In this document: positions 16,170 to 36,737 of the stretch, in pieces
Layout of the letters: every line of letters starts with the position of its first letter
Position numbering within the stretch: position 1 is the stretch's first letter
Assembly (NCBI GenBank): GCA_947497265.1
Contig: CANMFP010000001.1
Span: forward strand, 1 to 64,000
Length of the DNA stretch: 64,000 nt
DNA from: an uncultured Isoptericola sp.
GTDB lineage: Bacteria > Actinomycetota > Actinomycetes > Actinomycetales > Cellulomonadaceae
Direction: 5' to 3'
The notes under the pieces: generated by a model
Seen by the model: only the letters and a program-made list of their open reading frames with translations
Told to the model about the DNA's origin: nothing
The model's database searches: none
Translations under genes and position numbers: made by a program

Positions 16170-16541
16170 TCACCAGAAGACGGCCACGAGGATGTTGGCC
16201 AGCGTCAGCGCACCGATCGTGTGCTTCAGCCCGGGGCTGACGGCGCCCGTGCCGTTGTCCGCCTTGCTCCCCTGCCGCTTGGCGACAAGGGCGAGGACCG
16301 TGATGACCAGCGCGACGGTGAGCTTGACGCCGATCTTGGGCATGGACGGGCCGTCGTCGCCCCACACGTCGCCCATCTCCGCGGTCCCGACCATGAGGAC
16401 GCCCGCGACCAGCGCGGTCGCCGCCCCGTGGAACACCCCGCGGTACAGGCCTGGGCTGCGCAGCGACGCGAGGTAGCCACCGAGGACGATGGCCCACCCG
16501 ACGAAGTGCAGCACCGTGAAGAGGTTGTAGAGGAACTCCAT
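16170..16541 (-). CDS. small integral membrane protein
   Basis: This 123-residue protein has four predicted membrane helices (LFTVLHFVGWAIVLGGYLA, then a hydrophobic segment after residue 38, then two in the C-terminal half) and a short polar loop. His12 in the first helix resembles small haem- or copper-associated membrane proteins, but I cannot assign a family. ATG 16541 has no Shine-Dalgarno sequence and follows TAGGCT by six bases. Confidence 0.7.
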   Translation of the reverse strand: MEFLYNLFTVLHFVGWAIVLGGYLASLRSPGLYRGVFHGAATALVAGVLMVGTAEMGDVWGDDGPSMPKIGVKLTVALVITVLALVAKRQGSKADNGTGAVSPGLKHTIGALTLANILVAVFW

Positions 16542-16547
16542 GCCGAC

Positions 16548-16553
16548 AGCCTA
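16548..16553 (-). promoter_or_regulatory. -10 hexamer TAGGCT
   Basis: On the minus strand TAGGCT ends six bases before ATG 16541 of the small membrane protein gene, indicating a leaderless start. Confidence 0.5.
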
Positions 16554-16643
16554 TCCGCGCCACGCCGCCGCGGATGGCGTCTCAATCCGTGACACTCGTC
16601 CCAGCATGCGGACCTGGGGTTTCGCGAGATGGTCGTACCGGGT

Positions 16644-16649
16644 TAGATT
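16644..16649 (+). promoter_or_regulatory. -10 hexamer of the sulfur operon
   Basis: TAGATT ends seven bases before ATG 16657. Transcription would start at or next to that ATG, giving a leaderless short ORF and a leader of about 236 nt in front of nirA. Confidence 0.6.
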
Positions 16650-16656
16650 CCTCGAC

Positions 16657-16761
16657 ATGACCACGGCTGCGCCCCACTTCCTCACGACCACCCGTCGTGA
16701 GATGTCCGCGCGCCCCAGCCTGCGCATGCGCATGTGCAGCTGTCAGTGCTGCTGTCGCTGA
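16657..16761 (+). CDS. leaderless polycysteine leader peptide of the sulfur operon
   Basis: This 34-residue ORF ends in MRMCSCQCCCR, with five cysteine codons among its last eight codons and the stop TGA at 16759-16761. The start has a perfect leaderless context. It precedes sulfite reductase and APS reductase genes. Leaderless short ORFs with cysteine runs upstream of sulfur assimilation genes have been described in mycobacteria as cysteine-responsive attenuators: ribosomes stalling on Cys codons when Cys-tRNA is scarce change mRNA folding and raise expression downstream. I infer the same role here. The peptide itself probably has no function. Confidence 0.75.
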   Translation: MTTAAPHFLTTTRREMSARPSLRMRMCSCQCCCR

Positions 16762-16892
16762 TCGCGCCCCACCTCAGCCCCCACCGCCACTGCGGATTCT
16801 GAGCACCGGCGCGCGCCGTCGGTCTCGGCCCATCTCTGCTGAGCCATCGTCGTCGCGCGTCCCGCCCCCGAGGACCCGAGGAACCCCCCAGG
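16762..16892 (+). promoter_or_regulatory. nirA leader with mutually exclusive stems
   Basis: Between the leader ORF and nirA, CTCAGC (16773-16778) can pair through CTCAG with CTGAG (16799-16803), enclosing an inner CCGC-CACT-GCGG stem, or fully with GCTGAG (16838-16843). The two pairings exclude each other. A GC stem spans about 16805-16823. The nirA ribosome-binding site GAGGA is at 16878-16882. Such alternatives suit an attenuator; folding was judged by eye only. Confidence 0.4.
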
Positions 16893-18617
16893 ATGACGAC
16901 GCAGACCACCTCCGCCACGCAGGCCCCCACCGACGCCCCCGCACGCCCGGCACGTGCCGCCCGGCCGAACGGCCAGTGGAAGATCGACGGCACGGCCCCG
17001 CTGAACCACAACGAGGAGTTCAAGCAGGAGTCCGACTCGCTCGCCGTGCGCGAACGGATCGAGAACGTCTACGCCCACGAGGGCTTCGACTCCATCACCG
17101 ACGACGACCTGCACGGCCGTTTCCGCTGGTGGGGGCTGTACACCCAGCGCAAGCCCGGGATCGACGGCGGGCGCACGGCCACGCTCGAGCCGCACGAGCT
17201 CGAGGACCGCTACTTCATGCTCCGCGTGCGCACCGACGGCCAGGCCCTCGACCCGACCGCGCTGCGGGTGCTCGGCGACATCTCGACCGACTACGGCCGG
17301 GGCAGCGCCGACATCACCGACCGGCAGAACATCCAGTACCACTGGATCGAGGTCGAGAACGTGCCGGAGATCTGGCGTCGCCTCGACACCGTGGGCCTCG
17401 AGACGACGACGGCGTGCGGAGACTCCCCCCGCGGGTTCCTCGGCAGCCCGGTCGCGGGCGTCGCCGCCGACGAGATCATCGACCCGACGCCGGTGATCCG
17501 CGAGATCAAGCGCCTTTACATCGGCGACCCCGACCTCGCCAACCTGCCGCGCAAGTTCAAGACCGCGATCACGGGGCACCCCAGCCTCGACGTGGTCCAC
17601 GAGATCAACGACGTCTCGCTCGTGGGCGTGCGACACCCCGAGCTCGGCGCCGGCTACGACCTGTGGGTCGGCGGCGCGCTGTCGACCATGCCCCGCCTCG
17701 GCGAGCGCCTCGGTGTGTTCGTCACCGCCGAGCAGGCGCCCGACGTCTGGCACGGCGTGATCCGGATCTTCCGTGACTACGGGTACCGCCGCCTGCGGAA
17801 CAAGGCCCGCCTGAAGTTCCTGCTCAAGGACTGGGGCGTCGAAAAGTTCCGGAAGATCCTGGAGGACGAGTACCTCGGCTACCAGCTCCCCGACGGTCCC
17901 CCGCCGGCACCGGCCACGCGGCCGGGCGACCACGTCGGGGTCCACGAGCAGAAGGACGGCCGCTTCTACGTGGGGGCCGCGCCCGTCGTCGGGCGGGTCG
18001 GCGGCGGGACGCTCACCGGCCTCGCGGACCTCATCGAGTCGGTCGGTGCGGAGTCGGCCCGGCTGACCGCGCACCAGAAGGTCGTCATCCTCGGTGTCCC
18101 GGCCGACCGGGTGGACGAGCTGGTCGCCGGGCTCGAGCCGCTCGGCCTCACCGCCCGGCCCAGCCTGTTCCGGCGCTCGACCATGGCCTGCACCGGCATC
18201 GAGTACTGCAAGCTCGCGATCGTCGACACCAAGGACACCGCGGCGCGCGTGATCAGCGAGCTCGAGGAACGGCTCGGCGACATCGAGGGTCGCCTCGGCC
18301 GGCCGATCGAGCTCAACGTCAACGGCTGCCCCAACTCGTGCGCCCGGATCCAGACGGCCGACGTCGGGCTGAAGGGCCAGATCATCACCGTCGACGGCGA
18401 GCAGATGCCCGGCTTCCAGGTGCACCTGGGCGGCGGGCTGGTCGACGACGCACGCGAGGCCGGCGAGCTCGGCCGCACCGTGCGCGGGCTGAAGGTGCCG
18501 GCCGCGGACGTCGCCGACTACGTCGAGCGGGTCGTGCGCCGGTACGAGTCCGAGCGCGAGGTCGCCGAGACGTTCGCCCAGTGGGCCCACCGGGCCGACG
18601 AGGAGGCGTTGCAGTGA
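16893..18617 (+). CDS. nirA: ferredoxin-dependent sulfite/nitrite reductase
   Basis: This siroheme and [4Fe-4S] enzyme reduces sulfite to sulfide (or nitrite to ammonia) with six electrons from ferredoxin. Of 574 residues, Cys433, Cys439, Cys479 and Cys483 (TACTGIEYC and NGCPNSC) are the cluster and siroheme ligands. Tyr83 (GLYTQRKPG) and Cys175 (TACGDSPR) match the pair that is cross-linked in Mycobacterium tuberculosis NirA, which is a sulfite reductase. The neighbours cysH, cysG and sirB support the sulfite role. ATG 16893 has GAGGA at ten bases. The stop overlaps the cysH start. Confidence 0.95.
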   Translation: MTTQTTSATQAPTDAPARPARAARPNGQWKIDGTAPLNHNEEFKQESDSLAVRERIENVYAHEGFDSITDDDLHGRFRWWGLYTQRKPGIDGGRTATLEPHELEDRYFMLRVRTDGQALDPTALRVLGDISTDYGRGSADITDRQNIQYHWIEVENVPEIWRRLDTVGLETTTACGDSPRGFLGSPVAGVAADEIIDPTPVIREIKRLYIGDPDLANLPRKFKTAITGHPSLDVVHEINDVSLVGVRHPELGAGYDLWVGGALSTMPRLGERLGVFVTAEQAPDVWHGVIRIFRDYGYRRLRNKARLKFLLKDWGVEKFRKILEDEYLGYQLPDGPPPAPATRPGDHVGVHEQKDGRFYVGAAPVVGRVGGGTLTGLADLIESVGAESARLTAHQKVVILGVPADRVDELVAGLEPLGLTARPSLFRRSTMACTGIEYCKLAIVDTKDTAARVISELEERLGDIEGRLGRPIELNVNGCPNSCARIQTADVGLKGQIITVDGEQMPGFQVHLGGGLVDDAREAGELGRTVRGLKVPAADVADYVERVVRRYESEREVAETFAQWAHRADEEALQ

Positions 18618-19498
18618 CCGCCGTCTCCGTCGCCCTCGGGGTCGGCCCCAACGCGTCCGGTGCACCCTCGGGTCCCGCGTCCTCGCTGGCCGGTGCGGCC
18701 GCGGCGGCCCGGCGTCGTGCCGCGGAACGCGACCGCTCCCGTGCCCGGCACCGCGCCCGCGTCGACGGCCGGGAGCGTCGGCGTCGCTCCGACGCGGAGC
18801 TGAGCCAGATCGCCGCGCGCGGCCGCCGCGAGCTCGGCGGGTCCGGGATCGGGTCGCCCGACGAGGCGTCGGCGCACGAGGTCATCGCCTGGGCCGTCGA
18901 GCAGTTCGGTGACTCCCTCGCCGTCGCGTCCTCGATGACGGACTCCGTCCTCGCCGCGCTGGTCAGCGAGCAGCTGCCGTGGGTCGACGTCCTGTTCGGC
19001 GACACCGGCTACCACTTCGCCGAGACACTCGGCACGCGGGACGCCGTCGAGCACTCGCTCGACGTGACGATCGTCGACGTGCGCCCGCGCCTCAGCGTCG
19101 CGGAGCAGGCCGAGGCCTACGGTCCCGACCTCTTCGCCCGCGACCCGGAGGCCTGCTGCCGCATCCGCAAGGTCGAGCCCATGCGCGACATGCTCGCCGG
19201 GTACGAGGCCTGGGCCACGGGCGTGCGGCGGGCGGACTCGGGCTCGCGCGCCTCCGCCGAGCTGGTCTCCTGGGACGCGTCGAACAACCTGGTCAAGATC
19301 AACCCGATCGCGGCATGGTCGGACGACGAGCTGGTCGGATACGCGCTGGCCAACGGGCTCACCGTGAACCCGCTGCTGAACGACGGGTACCCGTCGATCG
19401 GCTGCGAGCCCTGCACCCGTCGCGTGGCCGCGGGCGAGGACGCGCGGGCCGGCCGCTGGTCCGGCGTCGACAAGTCCGAGTGCGGTCTGCACATCTGA
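18614..19498 (+). CDS. cysH: assimilatory APS reductase (CysH family, 4Fe-4S type)
   Basis: It reduces adenylyl sulfate to sulfite with thioredoxin. The two cysteine pairs Cys181-Cys182 (CCRIRKVEP) and Cys264/Cys267 (CEPC) mark the iron-sulfur APS-reducing branch rather than the PAPS branch, and Cys290 in ECGLHI is the catalytic cysteine. The pyrophosphate-binding segment SSMTDSVLAAL is at 106-116. GTG 18614 overlaps the nirA stop as GTGA and has AGGAGG at seven bases. The first 60 residues are unusual: Ala-rich, then an Arg-rich stretch (33-58) that most CysH proteins lack. Confidence 0.93.
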   Translation: MTAVSVALGVGPNASGAPSGPASSLAGAAAAARRRAAERDRSRARHRARVDGRERRRRSDAELSQIAARGRRELGGSGIGSPDEASAHEVIAWAVEQFGDSLAVASSMTDSVLAALVSEQLPWVDVLFGDTGYHFAETLGTRDAVEHSLDVTIVDVRPRLSVAEQAEAYGPDLFARDPEACCRIRKVEPMRDMLAGYEAWATGVRRADSGSRASAELVSWDASNNLVKINPIAAWSDDELVGYALANGLTVNPLLNDGYPSIGCEPCTRRVAAGEDARAGRWSGVDKSECGLHI

Positions 19499-19517: not shown

Positions 19518-20777
19518 GTGAGCGACCTCTACCCCCTCGGGCTGCGCGTGCGCGGCCGGCTCGTCGTCGTGGTCGGCGGCGGGCCGGTCGCCGGGCGCCG
19601 GGTCCGCGGCCTGCTCGACGCCGGCGCCCAGGTGCGCGTCGTGGCGCCCGGCCTCACCGACCACCTCGCCGCGCTCGTCGCGGACGGCGCCGTCGAGCAC
19701 CGGGCCCGGGAGTACGCCCCCGGCGACCTCGACGGCGCCTGGCTCGTCCACACGGCGACCGGCGTCCCGGCCGTCGACGCCGCGGTGGCGGACGCCGCCG
19801 ACGCGGCCCGCACCTTCTGCGTGGTCGCCTCCGACGCCGCGGCCGCCACGGCCTGGGTGCCCGCAGTCACCGAGCTGCCCGAGGAGCAGGTCACGGTCGC
19901 GGTGCACGCCGGCCGCGACCCGCGCCGCGCGGTACGGCTCCGCGACGGGGTCGCCGCCGCGCTGGAGGCCGGTGAGCTGCCGCTGCGCCGGTTCCGCCCG
20001 GCCGACGGCTCGCGGGACGACGGTGGCCCATCGCCCGGTCGAGTCGCCCTCGTGGGCGGCGGGCCCGGTGCCCCGGGGTTGGTCACCGGCCGGGGGCGCC
20101 GGCTCCTGGCGCGTGCCGACGTCGTCGTCGTGGACCGGCTCGGACCGCGCTCGCTGCTGACGACGCTGGCGGACGACGTCGAGGTGGTCGACGTCGGCAA
20201 GACCTCCGGCAACCACCCGGTACCGCAGGAGCGCATCAACGAGCTGCTGGTGGAGCACGCGCTGGCCGGCCGCGACGTGGTGCGGCTCAAGGGCGGCGAC
20301 CCGTACGTGTTCGGGCGGGGCGGCGAGGAGCTGGCCGCATGCCGTGCCGCCGGGATCGAGGTCGAGGTGGTGCCCGGCGTGACGTCGGCCGTGTCGGTGC
20401 CCGCCGCCGTCGGCATCCCGGTGACGCACCGCGGCGTGGCCGCAGGGTTCAGCGTGCTGACCGCCCACGAGGCGGTGGCCCACGTGCCCGGCGGCGCCGA
20501 CCACACCCTGGTGCTCCTCATGGGCGTGACCCGGCTGGCCCGGACCACGGAGGCTCTCGTCACGGCCGGCAGGCCCGCGTCCACCCCGGTGGCGGTCGTC
20601 GAGGACGGCTACGGCCCGCGCCAGCGCGCCACGTTCGGCACGCTGGGCGACATCGCCGAGCGGGCCGCCGCCGCGGGGGTGCAGCCGCCGGCCGTCACCG
20701 TGGTGGGCGATGTGGTGCGCCTCGCCGCGGGCTGGGCGTCTCACAGCACCGACGGCCAGGCGGTGAGCAGGCCGTGA
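19518..20777 (+). CDS. cysG: siroheme synthase: precorrin-2 dehydrogenase / uroporphyrinogen-III methyltransferase fusion
   Basis: The N-terminal 150 residues are the NAD-dependent precorrin-2 dehydrogenase domain (VVVVGGGPVAGRRVRGLL). From about residue 174 the protein is a CobA/SUMT methyltransferase (RVALVGGGPGAPGLVTGRG; GKTSGNHPVPQERIN; VVRLKGGDPYVFGRGGEE). Together they turn uroporphyrinogen III into sirohydrochlorin for NirA. Iron insertion is probably done by the next gene, sirB. GTG 19518 has GAGG nine bases upstream, 20 bp after cysH. Confidence 0.93.
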   Translation: MSDLYPLGLRVRGRLVVVVGGGPVAGRRVRGLLDAGAQVRVVAPGLTDHLAALVADGAVEHRAREYAPGDLDGAWLVHTATGVPAVDAAVADAADAARTFCVVASDAAAATAWVPAVTELPEEQVTVAVHAGRDPRRAVRLRDGVAAALEAGELPLRRFRPADGSRDDGGPSPGRVALVGGGPGAPGLVTGRGRRLLARADVVVVDRLGPRSLLTTLADDVEVVDVGKTSGNHPVPQERINELLVEHALAGRDVVRLKGGDPYVFGRGGEELAACRAAGIEVEVVPGVTSAVSVPAAVGIPVTHRGVAAGFSVLTAHEAVAHVPGGADHTLVLLMGVTRLARTTEALVTAGRPASTPVAVVEDGYGPRQRATFGTLGDIAERAAAAGVQPPAVTVVGDVVRLAAGWASHSTDGQAVSRP

Positions 20778-20833: not shown

Positions 20834-21538
20834 ATGGCCGCCCCGACCCTGCTCGCGATCTCGCACGGCACCTCGTCGCCCGTCGGCGCCACCGCCGTGG
20901 CCACCCTGGTCGACGCCGTCGCCGCACGTCTCGAGGACGAGGTCCCCGTGCGTGCCGGGTTCGTCGATGTCCAGGAACCCGACGTGCCGACCTGCCTCGA
21001 CGGTCTGCGGGGACGCACGGTGATCGTGCCGCTGCTGCTGTCGGCGGGCTTCCACGTGCACGTCGACCTGCGCCGCGAGATCGACGACGCCGTCGGCTCC
21101 GGTGCCGACGTGGCGCTCGCCGGGGCGCTCGGTCCCGACGGCCGGCTCGTCGACCTGCTCGCGCGGCGGCTGGCGGGGGCGGGCCTGGCCGCCGGCGACG
21201 TCGTCGTCCTCGCCGCCGCCGGGTCGTCAGACGCCCGCGCCGTCGCCGACTGCGAGCGCACCGGCGCGCTGCTCGCCGAGCGCACCGGGCACCCGGTCAG
21301 CGTCGGCTTCATCGCCAACGCCACGCCGCGGGTGCCCGACGTGGTCGCCAGGGCGCGTACCGAGCACCCGGGCGCACGCGTGGTGATCGCGAGCTATCTC
21401 CTCGCGCCGGGCTACTTCCAGACGCTGGCCGAGCGCGCGGGCGCCGACGTGACCACCGGTCCGCTGCTGCTCGCCGACGCCGAGGCGCCGCGCGAGCTCG
21501 TCGACATCGTGATCGAGCGCTACCGCGTCACCGTGTGA
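20834..21538 (+). CDS. sirB: sirohydrochlorin chelatase, CbiX/SirB type
   Basis: This class II chelatase inserts Fe2+ (or Co2+) into sirohydrochlorin. The 234-residue protein has two related halves: LLAISHGTSSPVG with the first metal-site His at the N-terminus, VPLLLSAGFHVHVDL with the second His in the middle, and ASYLLAPGYF in the second half. ATG 20834 places the first beta strand directly at the N-terminus. GTG 20774, which overlaps the cysG stop as GTGA, would add 20 residues and remains possible. Confidence 0.88.
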   Translation: MAAPTLLAISHGTSSPVGATAVATLVDAVAARLEDEVPVRAGFVDVQEPDVPTCLDGLRGRTVIVPLLLSAGFHVHVDLRREIDDAVGSGADVALAGALGPDGRLVDLLARRLAGAGLAAGDVVVLAAAGSSDARAVADCERTGALLAERTGHPVSVGFIANATPRVPDVVARARTEHPGARVVIASYLLAPGYFQTLAERAGADVTTGPLLLADAEAPRELVDIVIERYRVTV

Positions 21539-35464: not shown

Positions 35465-36640
35465 TCAGGCTCCTTCGAGGACGGGGGCAAAACGGTCGGG
35501 GTCGGCGACGCGCAGGGCGTCCGGCAGGGCGGCACCGGTCAGACCGGCGACGACGGCCTCGGCCGTCAGCGGTGCGAGGAGCACCCCGCCACGATGGTGG
35601 CCCGTCGCCAGGTGCAGGCCCGGCGTGGCCGTCGGCCCCACGAGCGGCAGGTTGTCGGGGGTGGCGGGTCGCGCCCGCAGCGTCGCCTCGACGAAGGCGG
35701 CCTCGTCGAGGGCCGGCACCAGCGCCCGGGCGTCCCGCAGCAGCGCGAACACTCCCCCGGCCGACGGGCGGTGGTCGTCCGGGCCCTCCTCGCTGGTGGC
35801 GCCGACGACGACCTCCCGGTGCTCCGCCGTCGTCCCCGGACCTGATCCCGTCCCGGGCTCCCGCGGCACCACGTAGACCGGGCGGCCCTGCACCCGGCCG
35901 CGCACGACATGCCCGGGGGCGGACCCGGGCGGAGCGTCGAGCCGGAGCGTCTGGCCCCGCACCGGCCGGACGGGCACGTCGACCAGCTCGCCGGACCGCC
36001 ACCCGGCGGCCAGGACCACCGCCCCGGCCCGGTGCAGCGTGCCCGCCTCGTCGAGGACACCGACGACGGCGCCCCGGTCGCGTTCGAGGCGCACGGCGGC
36101 ACGCTGGACGACGGCGGCACGGGGGTGGGCGTGCAGGGCGACGTCGAGCGCGGCCCTGGTCGCGCGCGGGTCGGCAACATGGTCACCCGGCACCCAGGCG
36201 GCTCCGGCGACGTGGTGCCCGAGGAGCGGTTCGCGGCGCCGTGCCTGGGCACCGGTGAGCTCGTCCGGCTGCACGCCGAGCTCGGCGTGCAGGGCGAGCC
36301 AGCGCCGCAGGTGCGCGACGTCGTCGGCGTCGTAGGCCGCCACCAGCGTGCCCGTCTCGCGCAGCCCCGAGCCGAGGCCCGTCGCGCGCAGGAGGTCAGC
36401 CGCGAAGCGGGGCCATGCGGCGAGGCCGGCCAGGCCCAGACGGGCGAGGGCGGACTCGCCGAACCACGACTCGCTGACCGGTGCGAGCATCCCGGCGGCG
36501 GCGTGCGTGGCGCCGTCCCCCGGGCTCGGGTCGAGCAGGACGACCGTCAGACCGGCCTCGACGGCGCGCCAGGCCACCGCCGTACCGACGATGCCACCGC
36601 CGACGACCACGACGTCCGGCAGCGTCCCAGGCGTTCTCAT
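35465..36640 (-). CDS. thiO: glycine oxidase ThiO
   Basis: ThiO is an FAD-dependent D-amino-acid-oxidase-type enzyme that oxidises glycine to dehydroglycine for thiazole synthesis. The 391-residue protein opens with the FAD-binding fold (VVVVGGGIVGTAVAWRAVEA), then GATHAAAGMLAP, and near the C-terminus PLVGPTATPGLHLATGHHRG. ATG 36640 follows the AAGGGAG ribosome-binding site that is also the 3' end of the TPP riboswitch. An in-frame ATG 36661 would begin inside the riboswitch and is rejected. Confidence 0.93.
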   Translation of the reverse strand: MRTPGTLPDVVVVGGGIVGTAVAWRAVEAGLTVVLLDPSPGDGATHAAAGMLAPVSESWFGESALARLGLAGLAAWPRFAADLLRATGLGSGLRETGTLVAAYDADDVAHLRRWLALHAELGVQPDELTGAQARRREPLLGHHVAGAAWVPGDHVADPRATRAALDVALHAHPRAAVVQRAAVRLERDRGAVVGVLDEAGTLHRAGAVVLAAGWRSGELVDVPVRPVRGQTLRLDAPPGSAPGHVVRGRVQGRPVYVVPREPGTGSGPGTTAEHREVVVGATSEEGPDDHRPSAGGVFALLRDARALVPALDEAAFVEATLRARPATPDNLPLVGPTATPGLHLATGHHRGGVLLAPLTAEAVVAGLTGAALPDALRVADPDRFAPVLEGA

Positions 36641-36645
36641 GCGTG

Positions 36646-36728
36646 CTCCCTTCGCTGGCATGACCCAGATCAGGTTCGACGGTCGGCGGACCTCGCCCTC
36701 TCAGCCCCGACGGGGCTCCCGTGCTGCG
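36646..36728 (-). promoter_or_regulatory. TPP (THI-box) riboswitch of thiO-thiS-thiG
   Basis: Read on the minus strand, the conserved THI elements appear in order: CACGGGAGC, then GGGGCTGAGAGGG, then GACCGTCGAACCTGATCTGG, then GTCATGCCAGCGAAGGGAG. The last element contains the thiO ribosome-binding site, so thiamine pyrophosphate most likely represses translation by sequestering it. Spacing and strand fit a complete aptamer. Confidence 0.93.
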
Positions 36729-36731
36729 GCC

Positions 36732-36737
36732 ACTGTA
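36732..36737 (-). promoter_or_regulatory. -10 hexamer TACAGT of the thi operon
   Basis: On the minus strand TACAGT lies just upstream of the riboswitch; initiation about seven bases later would start the transcript at the aptamer 5' end. No convincing -35 box is visible. Confidence 0.45.

Follow-up and report, generated by a model that had tools for sequence, protein, structure and literature searches.

A poly-cysteine leader ORF upstream of nirA in Isoptericola and its relatives: a putative cysteine-responsive leader with a conserved RNA stem inside its coding sequence

Leader open reading frames (ORFs) that carry runs of Cys codons were predicted in 2005 before the cys operons of Mycobacterium and P. 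acnes and before cbs in B. longum and, no terminator hairpins having been found, a Rho-dependent mechanism was suggested for the mycobacterial cys leaders (Seliverstov, PMC1262725). A Cys-enriched leaderless upstream ORF (uORF) before nirA/Msmeg_4527 was later named by Shell 2015 (PMC4633059), and short leaderless ORFs with contiguous Cys codons are reported to regulate the genes downstream of them by attenuation in M. smegmatis (Canestrari 2020, as related in PMC9031893, PMC13236596 and PMC9094748), a species whose cysteine genes are described as being under translation attenuation (PMC13236596). Both nirA as a target and the principle of attenuation are, as far as the consulted sections of these papers extend, already published for mycobacteria. 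Here, we analyze a leader of this general kind in a 64-kb stretch of DNA (the window) and compare it with its counterparts in related genomes. The nearest named nirA loci are those of Isoptericola halotolerans and I. cucumis, with NirA 88% identical in each over the best segment, and the genus referred to below is for this reason taken to be Isoptericola.

The operon in question comprises four genes, whose domains bear out the gene order nirA-cysH-cysG-sirB given in a preliminary description of the locus:

16893..18617, plus strand: nirA, sulfite/nitrite reductase (NIR_SIR domain)
18614..19498, plus strand: cysH, PAPS/APS reductase (PAPS_reduct domain), with a probable GTG start overlapping the nirA stop
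19518..20777, plus strand: cysG, siroheme-synthase-type fusion (TP_methylase and NAD_binding_7 domains)
20834..21538, plus strand: sirB, CbiX-type chelatase (CbiX domain), with a probable start

The siroheme genes (cysG and sirB), whose possible control along with sulfur reduction the preliminary description had suggested, sit behind nirA-cysH within one gene run. Elsewhere in the window, a TPP riboswitch (RF00059, 57.7 bits) occupies positions 36629-36732 of the minus strand.

Directly upstream of nirA, and hence of this cysteine-biosynthetic operon, are the following elements:

16644..16649, plus strand: −10 element TAGATT of a leaderless-type promoter, with the ATG 7 nt downstream (spacer of 7 in 17/17 readable genus genomes)
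16657..16761, plus strand: poly-Cys leader ORF (the uORF), 34 codons plus stop, recognized from its sequence, its conservation and shuffles
16735..16755, plus strand: Cys codons C27, C29, C31, C32 and C33 (sequence and alignment)

A renewed direct reading of the letters agrees in every particular with the geometry first described: TAGATT is followed by the seven bases CCTCGAC and the ATG at 16657, the stop codon TGA falls at 16759-16761, and 131 nt separate it from the nirA ATG at 16893. The encoded peptide of 34 residues, MTTAAPHFLTTTRREMSARPSLRMRMCSCQCCCR, ends in CSCQCCCR*, so that five of its final eight codons specify Cys. It is the only ORF of 10-60 codons in the window with the arrangement TANNNT-N7-ATG. 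In 100 dinucleotide shuffles of the window there were 35 such ORFs in total, 26 having no Cys and nine a single Cys in the last eight codons, and none having more than one. This result, together with the conservation in relatives described below, contradicts the notion of a chance ORF behind an unrelated promoter, in favor of which there is its small size alone and which we regard as scarcely credible.

Judged from the letters of the genome, leaderless-type promoter geometry is common in this organism, and it is by this geometry that the uORF would have a leaderless-type start. TANNNT-N7-ATGAC occurs at 46 sites in its own genome, as against 0 for the reversed control pattern. Thirty of these sites were read, and at 27 the ATG begins a frame of at least 96 codons; by inspection some of these frames resemble WhiB, methionyl-tRNA synthetase and EPSP synthase, and the nirA uORF is the sole short Cys-rich ORF among the thirty. 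A scan of 68 genome loci around Cys-codon patterns (8 of 25, 30 of 130 and 30 of 114 places, a partial coverage of the genome) revealed no leaderless poly-Cys ORF other than that of nirA; such scans are blind to leaders headed by a Shine-Dalgarno (SD) sequence such as that of cysK, which was found by a targeted look. No leader was seen within the flank examined at cysN, where the start of the operon sits further upstream.

The Cys run and the leaderless start geometry are kept in relatives, as the preliminary description had anticipated; the lack of conserved Cys codons that would have told against it is not what the alignments reveal. An ORF with an ATG, a spacer of exactly 7 and four to five Cys in its last eight codons is present in 17/17 readable genomes of the genus (own included), and in an eighteenth, whose contig ends inside the region, the visible part reads CCCR*. 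More distant loci were scored by a mechanical rule (TANNNT, 6-8 nt, ATG or GTG, 14-59 codons, and three or more Cys within the final 15 residues). By this rule 42/70 loci of the family have a leader, with a spacer of 7 in 35, of 6 in five and of 8 in two; the 70 loci are a nonrandom set, composed of the 30 best matches (own included) and 40 chosen to cover genera out of matches in 146/200 family genomes, and they overlap with a second set of 80 named loci. In the latter, 12/80 have a leader, 11 of them labeled Isoptericola, Promicromonospora, Sanguibacter, Cellulosimicrobium, Luteimicrobium or Oerskovia and the twelfth a metagenome-assembled genome (MAG) labeled Actinomycetales. Named loci labeled Arthrobacter, Microbacterium, Knoellia and Brachybacterium have no leader by this rule, which misses Cys-rich frames that have no promoter match, so that a miss is not proof of absence. 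None of 68 class-level loci (28 returned by the search and 40 hand-picked; L159-L226) has a leader by the rule, and 50 of the 68 have before nirA a short frame with an RRHVD-like core. The suggestion of a wide spread in Actinobacteria is supported as regards the presence of the leader in the genus and in part of the family; the site before nirA and Cys-run leaders outside the mycobacteria were already in print (PMC4633059 and PMC1262725, in the portions consulted).

Some loci depart from this pattern. Five of Myceligenerans type (L018, L112, L115, L117 and L121) have upstream of nirA a leaderless-type ORF of 32 codons with a GTG start (MIRSMR...RMC.C...), in which a Cys pair lies in the middle of the peptide and not at its end. 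In seven family loci (L147-L153) short frames rich in Cys lie near nirA but lack the TANNNT-start arrangement; these may be a third type of leader. One genome (G063) has two nirA matches, the first of which (L139) has an upstream poly-Cys leaderless-type ORF, while in the second (L140) the same scan revealed none.

Between relatives the uORF differs in length and in the number and spacing of its Cys codons. A small functional Cys-rich protein that binds metal or thiols and is encoded in the operon would account for the Cys content and the conserved position, but this variability, and the absence of any Pfam or NCBIfam match, make such a protein very improbable. The core of the peptide is equally inconstant: the RRHVD that precedes the Cys cluster in class-level leaders matching the family model is absent, being replaced by LTTTRRE here and by LVTxRHE in many relatives, and within the family it degenerates into forms such as LVTTRHE, LTTTRRE, LATRRE, EATSRRA and PTAVGRG. 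The peptide is less well kept than the geometry of the start, the Cys codons and the RNA elements. The expectation in the preliminary description that all but the Cys run and the start would vary holds only in part: a stem within the uORF and several blocks past its stop match the Cys codons in conservation.

The same description had remarked that the peptide differs from the mycobacterial leaders, and comparison with family models confirms this. The model NF042936 (leader_Ms4527A; cut-off 45 bits) gave no match at E up to 10 with the window peptide (P0002) and three relatives, nor did any other NCBIfam model, and the window peptide has no Pfam match; three more relatives were likewise unmatched by NF042936 (E up to 1), one of them giving a sub-cut-off match to an unrelated selenoprotein model. 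The leader from one class-level genome scored 57 bits against the NF042936 cut-off of 45, and four other class-level leaders fell below that cut-off and match NF042934 or come near it. When family and RRHVD-type peptides were compared as profiles (14 each), hhalign aligned them weakly (P 1.7e-4, probability 49%), and a common origin of the two types of leader is plausible from their sequences. This weak alignment, and the retention of an RRHVD-type core before nirA in the class-level loci, would suit an arrest peptide that acts through its own amino acid sequence. We consider such a peptide improbable, however, since in the family it is the core that degenerates while the codons keep a base-paired stem.

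This stem occupies the following segment of the uORF:

16681..16701, plus strand: stem-loop within the uORF, CTCACGAC/GTCGTGAG, with compensatory changes in relatives

An 8-bp hairpin is formed by the codons for LTTTRRE or LVTxRHE. The alignment of this stem has 29 sequences, 17 belonging to the genus and 12 to other genus-level groups, of which there are at least three; in it 98.2% of cells pair, and four of the eight pairs have changed on both sides. For this stem taken with a second helix (13 pairs), double changes occupy 21 cells where shuffles give 5.3, and the covariation score of 0.260 compares with 0.150 in shuffles; neither value was reached by any of 500 shuffles. Pairs with double changes number four, as against 2.5 (reached by 13/500), and the number of pair types was not above that of the 500 shuffles. 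The codons themselves tell a similar story. From 54 ORFs found by the rule, 15 without the Arg-Arg/His anchor were dropped, and in all of the 30 distinct ORFs that remain the facing codons are exact reverse complements when two registers are allowed (GTG/CAC in 20, ACG/CGT in six and GCG/CGC in four); the neighboring Arg codon is CGT in 30/30, compared with 14/173 Arg codons in three window genes. Against a null of synonymous codons drawn from the same three window genes, the stem is longer at P<=0.05 in 25/44 distinct ORFs; among the remaining 19 are three from the genus and the majority of the more distant ORFs. The rows entering these stem statistics are related, and their independence is to that extent overstated. 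The four inner pairs are also present in 19/45 rows of RRHVD-type leaders elsewhere; for the 40 distinct ones outside the family the figure is 19 as against 4.0 expected from synonymous codons. The codon table behind that expectation was drawn from long frames, non-coding ones among them, and the rows are again related, so that these sequences give only a hint of a stem outside the family. A helix at the 5' end of the RNA, GACCACGGC:GCCGUCGGUC, is not claimed: 96.2% of its cells are paired, yet it has no double change and equals its shuffles.

Past the stop codon of the uORF lie further candidate elements:

16762..16892, plus strand: C-rich, G-poor interval between the uORF and nirA (62 C and 36 G of 131)
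16763..16768, plus strand: E1, CGCGCC, one base past the stop codon; a possible partner of E2, with a duplex strength not above shuffles
16808..16815, plus strand: E2, GGCGCGCG, a potential partner of E1 or E3, lying inside the conserved block GGCGCGCGCCGTCGGTC
16854..16861, plus strand: E3, CGCGCGTC; could pair with E2

The order after the stop is CGCGCC (E1), CTCAG/CTGAG, GGCGCGCGCCGTCGGTC (E2), TCGGC/GCTGA, CGTCGTCGCGCG (E3) and the SD region. Within the genus these blocks vary little or not at all, and they can be recognized in Cellulosimicrobium, Oerskovia and one further locus (L127). The block GGCGCGCGCCGTCGGTC (window 16808-16824) is nearly invariant across genera, which seems more than pairing needs, and a similar one, GGCGCGCGCCCCCGTCGG, is present in the organism's own cysK leader.

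The latter leader is an ORF headed by an SD sequence and ending in ACCCR*, before cysK on contig C14 of the same genome (L321, 1187-1297, with cysK at 1477). All 18 genomes of the genus have such an open frame, closed by TAG and with between two and six Cys among its final 15 codons, and in every one of them the stop codon is also where a conserved hairpin starts. In these 18 sequences 98.5% of the hairpin's cells pair, three pairs have wobble changes, and a single pair has changed on both sides (A-U in eight sequences and G-C in ten). Since one double-change pair was reached by 406/500 shuffles, the support for this hairpin comes from the paired cells and from slid controls. Rfam gave no match at E up to 1 either in the cysK leader stretch or in 16550-17000, which holds the nirA leader.

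Taken together, the chance test, the conservation, the common leaderless promoters, the cysteine-biosynthesis genes downstream, the blocks past the stop and the second poly-Cys leader before cysK argue that the 34-codon ORF is a cis-acting, cysteine-responsive, ribosome-stalling leader for nirA-cysH-cysG-sirB, whichever way the stall is read out, and we assign to this reading a probability of about 0.78. Transcription would start, from the promoter geometry, at or beside the ATG, and a ribosome would initiate on the uORF without a Shine-Dalgarno sequence. Under a shortage of Cys-tRNA this ribosome would be expected to slow on the five terminal Cys codons, and its position relative to the conserved RNA blocks past the stop would then decide the expression of the operon.

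How that position might be read is a separate matter. By analogy with the mycobacterial translational attenuators, E1, E2 and E3 may exchange partners and in this way set the access to the nirA start; we hold this to be the likeliest readout, at somewhat under an even chance, with Rho-dependent termination in the C-rich interval nearly as likely. In favor of an exchange, E2 and E3 are pairable in 99.6% of cells in the 29 sequences. Furthermore, two constrained states were compared, one in which E2:E3 was forced while the uORF was occupied and one in which E1:E2 was forced on ribosome-free RNA. In 26/28 sequences the nirA ribosome-binding site (RBS) was cheaper to open in the first than in the second, with means of 6.1 and 10.1 kcal/mol, respectively, for states that differ in ribosome occupancy as well. 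Other results count against it. The variation that preserves E2:E3 is one-sided, with no double changes in the 29 sequences, and equals its shuffles; with the ribosome footprint in place E2:E3 costs at least 4 kcal/mol in 23/28 sequences; and E1:E2, which is near the free ensemble in most sequences, is not a stronger duplex than its shuffles (combined P 0.075, 21 loci). A modeled footprint on the first Cys codons ends short of E1, and a stall there would therefore not melt it. Equilibrium folding of 17 genus sequences (40 shuffles each) gave no release of the RBS by queued or single ribosomes, the mean opening cost being 9.72 for the free RNA, 10.13 with ribosomes up to the penultimate Cys and 9.59 with a single ribosome there, and a footprint placed on each codon from the sixth onward yielded flat or mixed profiles and no release. 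The cysteine-responsive attenuator of the preliminary description keeps its poly-Cys leader geometry before a cysteine operon and obtains no support from equilibrium folding for a release of the RBS.

The Rho-dependent alternative has the same cysteine sensor, and only the readout differs: when cysteine is plentiful the ribosome would leave at the stop, exposing the C-rich, G-poor interval to Rho, whereas a stalled ribosome, or a structure formed during the stall, would protect it. The excess of C over G in this interval is above that of 99.7% of 131-nt windows (step 10, both strands, 64-kb window). Mean C and G are 0.503 and 0.279 in 17 genus nirA intervals and 0.475 and 0.283 in 18 genus cysK intervals, compared with 0.328 and 0.297 in roughly the corresponding stretch before nirA, its bounds being approximate since they were taken from the start of the match, of 66 named loci that have no leader. 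No intrinsic terminator (hairpin and U run) was found in 16400-17000, and Rho has the precedent proposed for the mycobacterial leaders (PMC1262725, in the part consulted). Base skew is nevertheless weak evidence, and the translation attenuation reported for M. smegmatis (PMC13236596, likewise in part) speaks against Rho; we regard termination of this kind as a possibility of less than even odds.

A broader and more speculative reading, which we put forward tentatively, concerns the history of these leaders. In the cellulomonad lineage an RNA stem, with its paired codon changes, might have replaced the peptide core of the nirA leader, which would thus act as a structured RNA with a ruler of Cys codons and not as a peptide; together with the SD-led cysK leader and the hairpin that starts from its stop codon, it could form a small cysteine regulon read by ribosome position. 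The present leader would extend cysteine-responsive leaders to a lineage in which the peptides go unrecognized by the current family model. It suggests that peptide sequence turns over rapidly in such switches, whose RNA elements and Cys codons persist along with the geometry of the start, and it allows one to test whether a stem within a coding sequence can replace a conserved peptide motif. Annotation that is based on peptide similarity will miss such leaders.

In the portions of the literature consulted, we found no cysteine leader described for nirA or cysK in this lineage; apparently new are the peptide, the internal stem with compensating changes where other leaders keep a peptide core, the cysK partner, the conserved blocks past the stop, and the C-rich, G-poor interval. 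Like the classical trp-type attenuator, the locus has its sensing codons just before the stop and possible alternative pairings downstream, but the terminator hairpin with its U run that belongs to that attenuator was not found here. The ORFs of NF042934 (cis_reg_atten, "putative leader peptide") are likewise short actinobacterial leaders, also before nirA, but those seen in this analysis carry one Cys or two toward the end, and the window ORF has no match to that model. The leaders predicted in 2005 (PMC1262725) are similarly short, with Cys runs near the stop and without an intrinsic terminator; that report, in the part consulted, gives no conserved hairpins able to act as terminators, whereas here there are conserved blocks past the stop and a stem within the ORF. 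With the polycysteine leaderless attenuators encoded by small ORFs, the uORF shares a terminal cluster of conserved Cys codons and a cysteine-metabolic operon downstream. Ms4527A of mycobacteria (NF042936; PMC4633059, in part) has in common with the uORF nirA downstream, a leaderless-type start and a Cys cluster near the C-terminal end; the difference is that here the RRHVD core has degenerated and the region it would occupy is taken up by a stem with compensatory changes.
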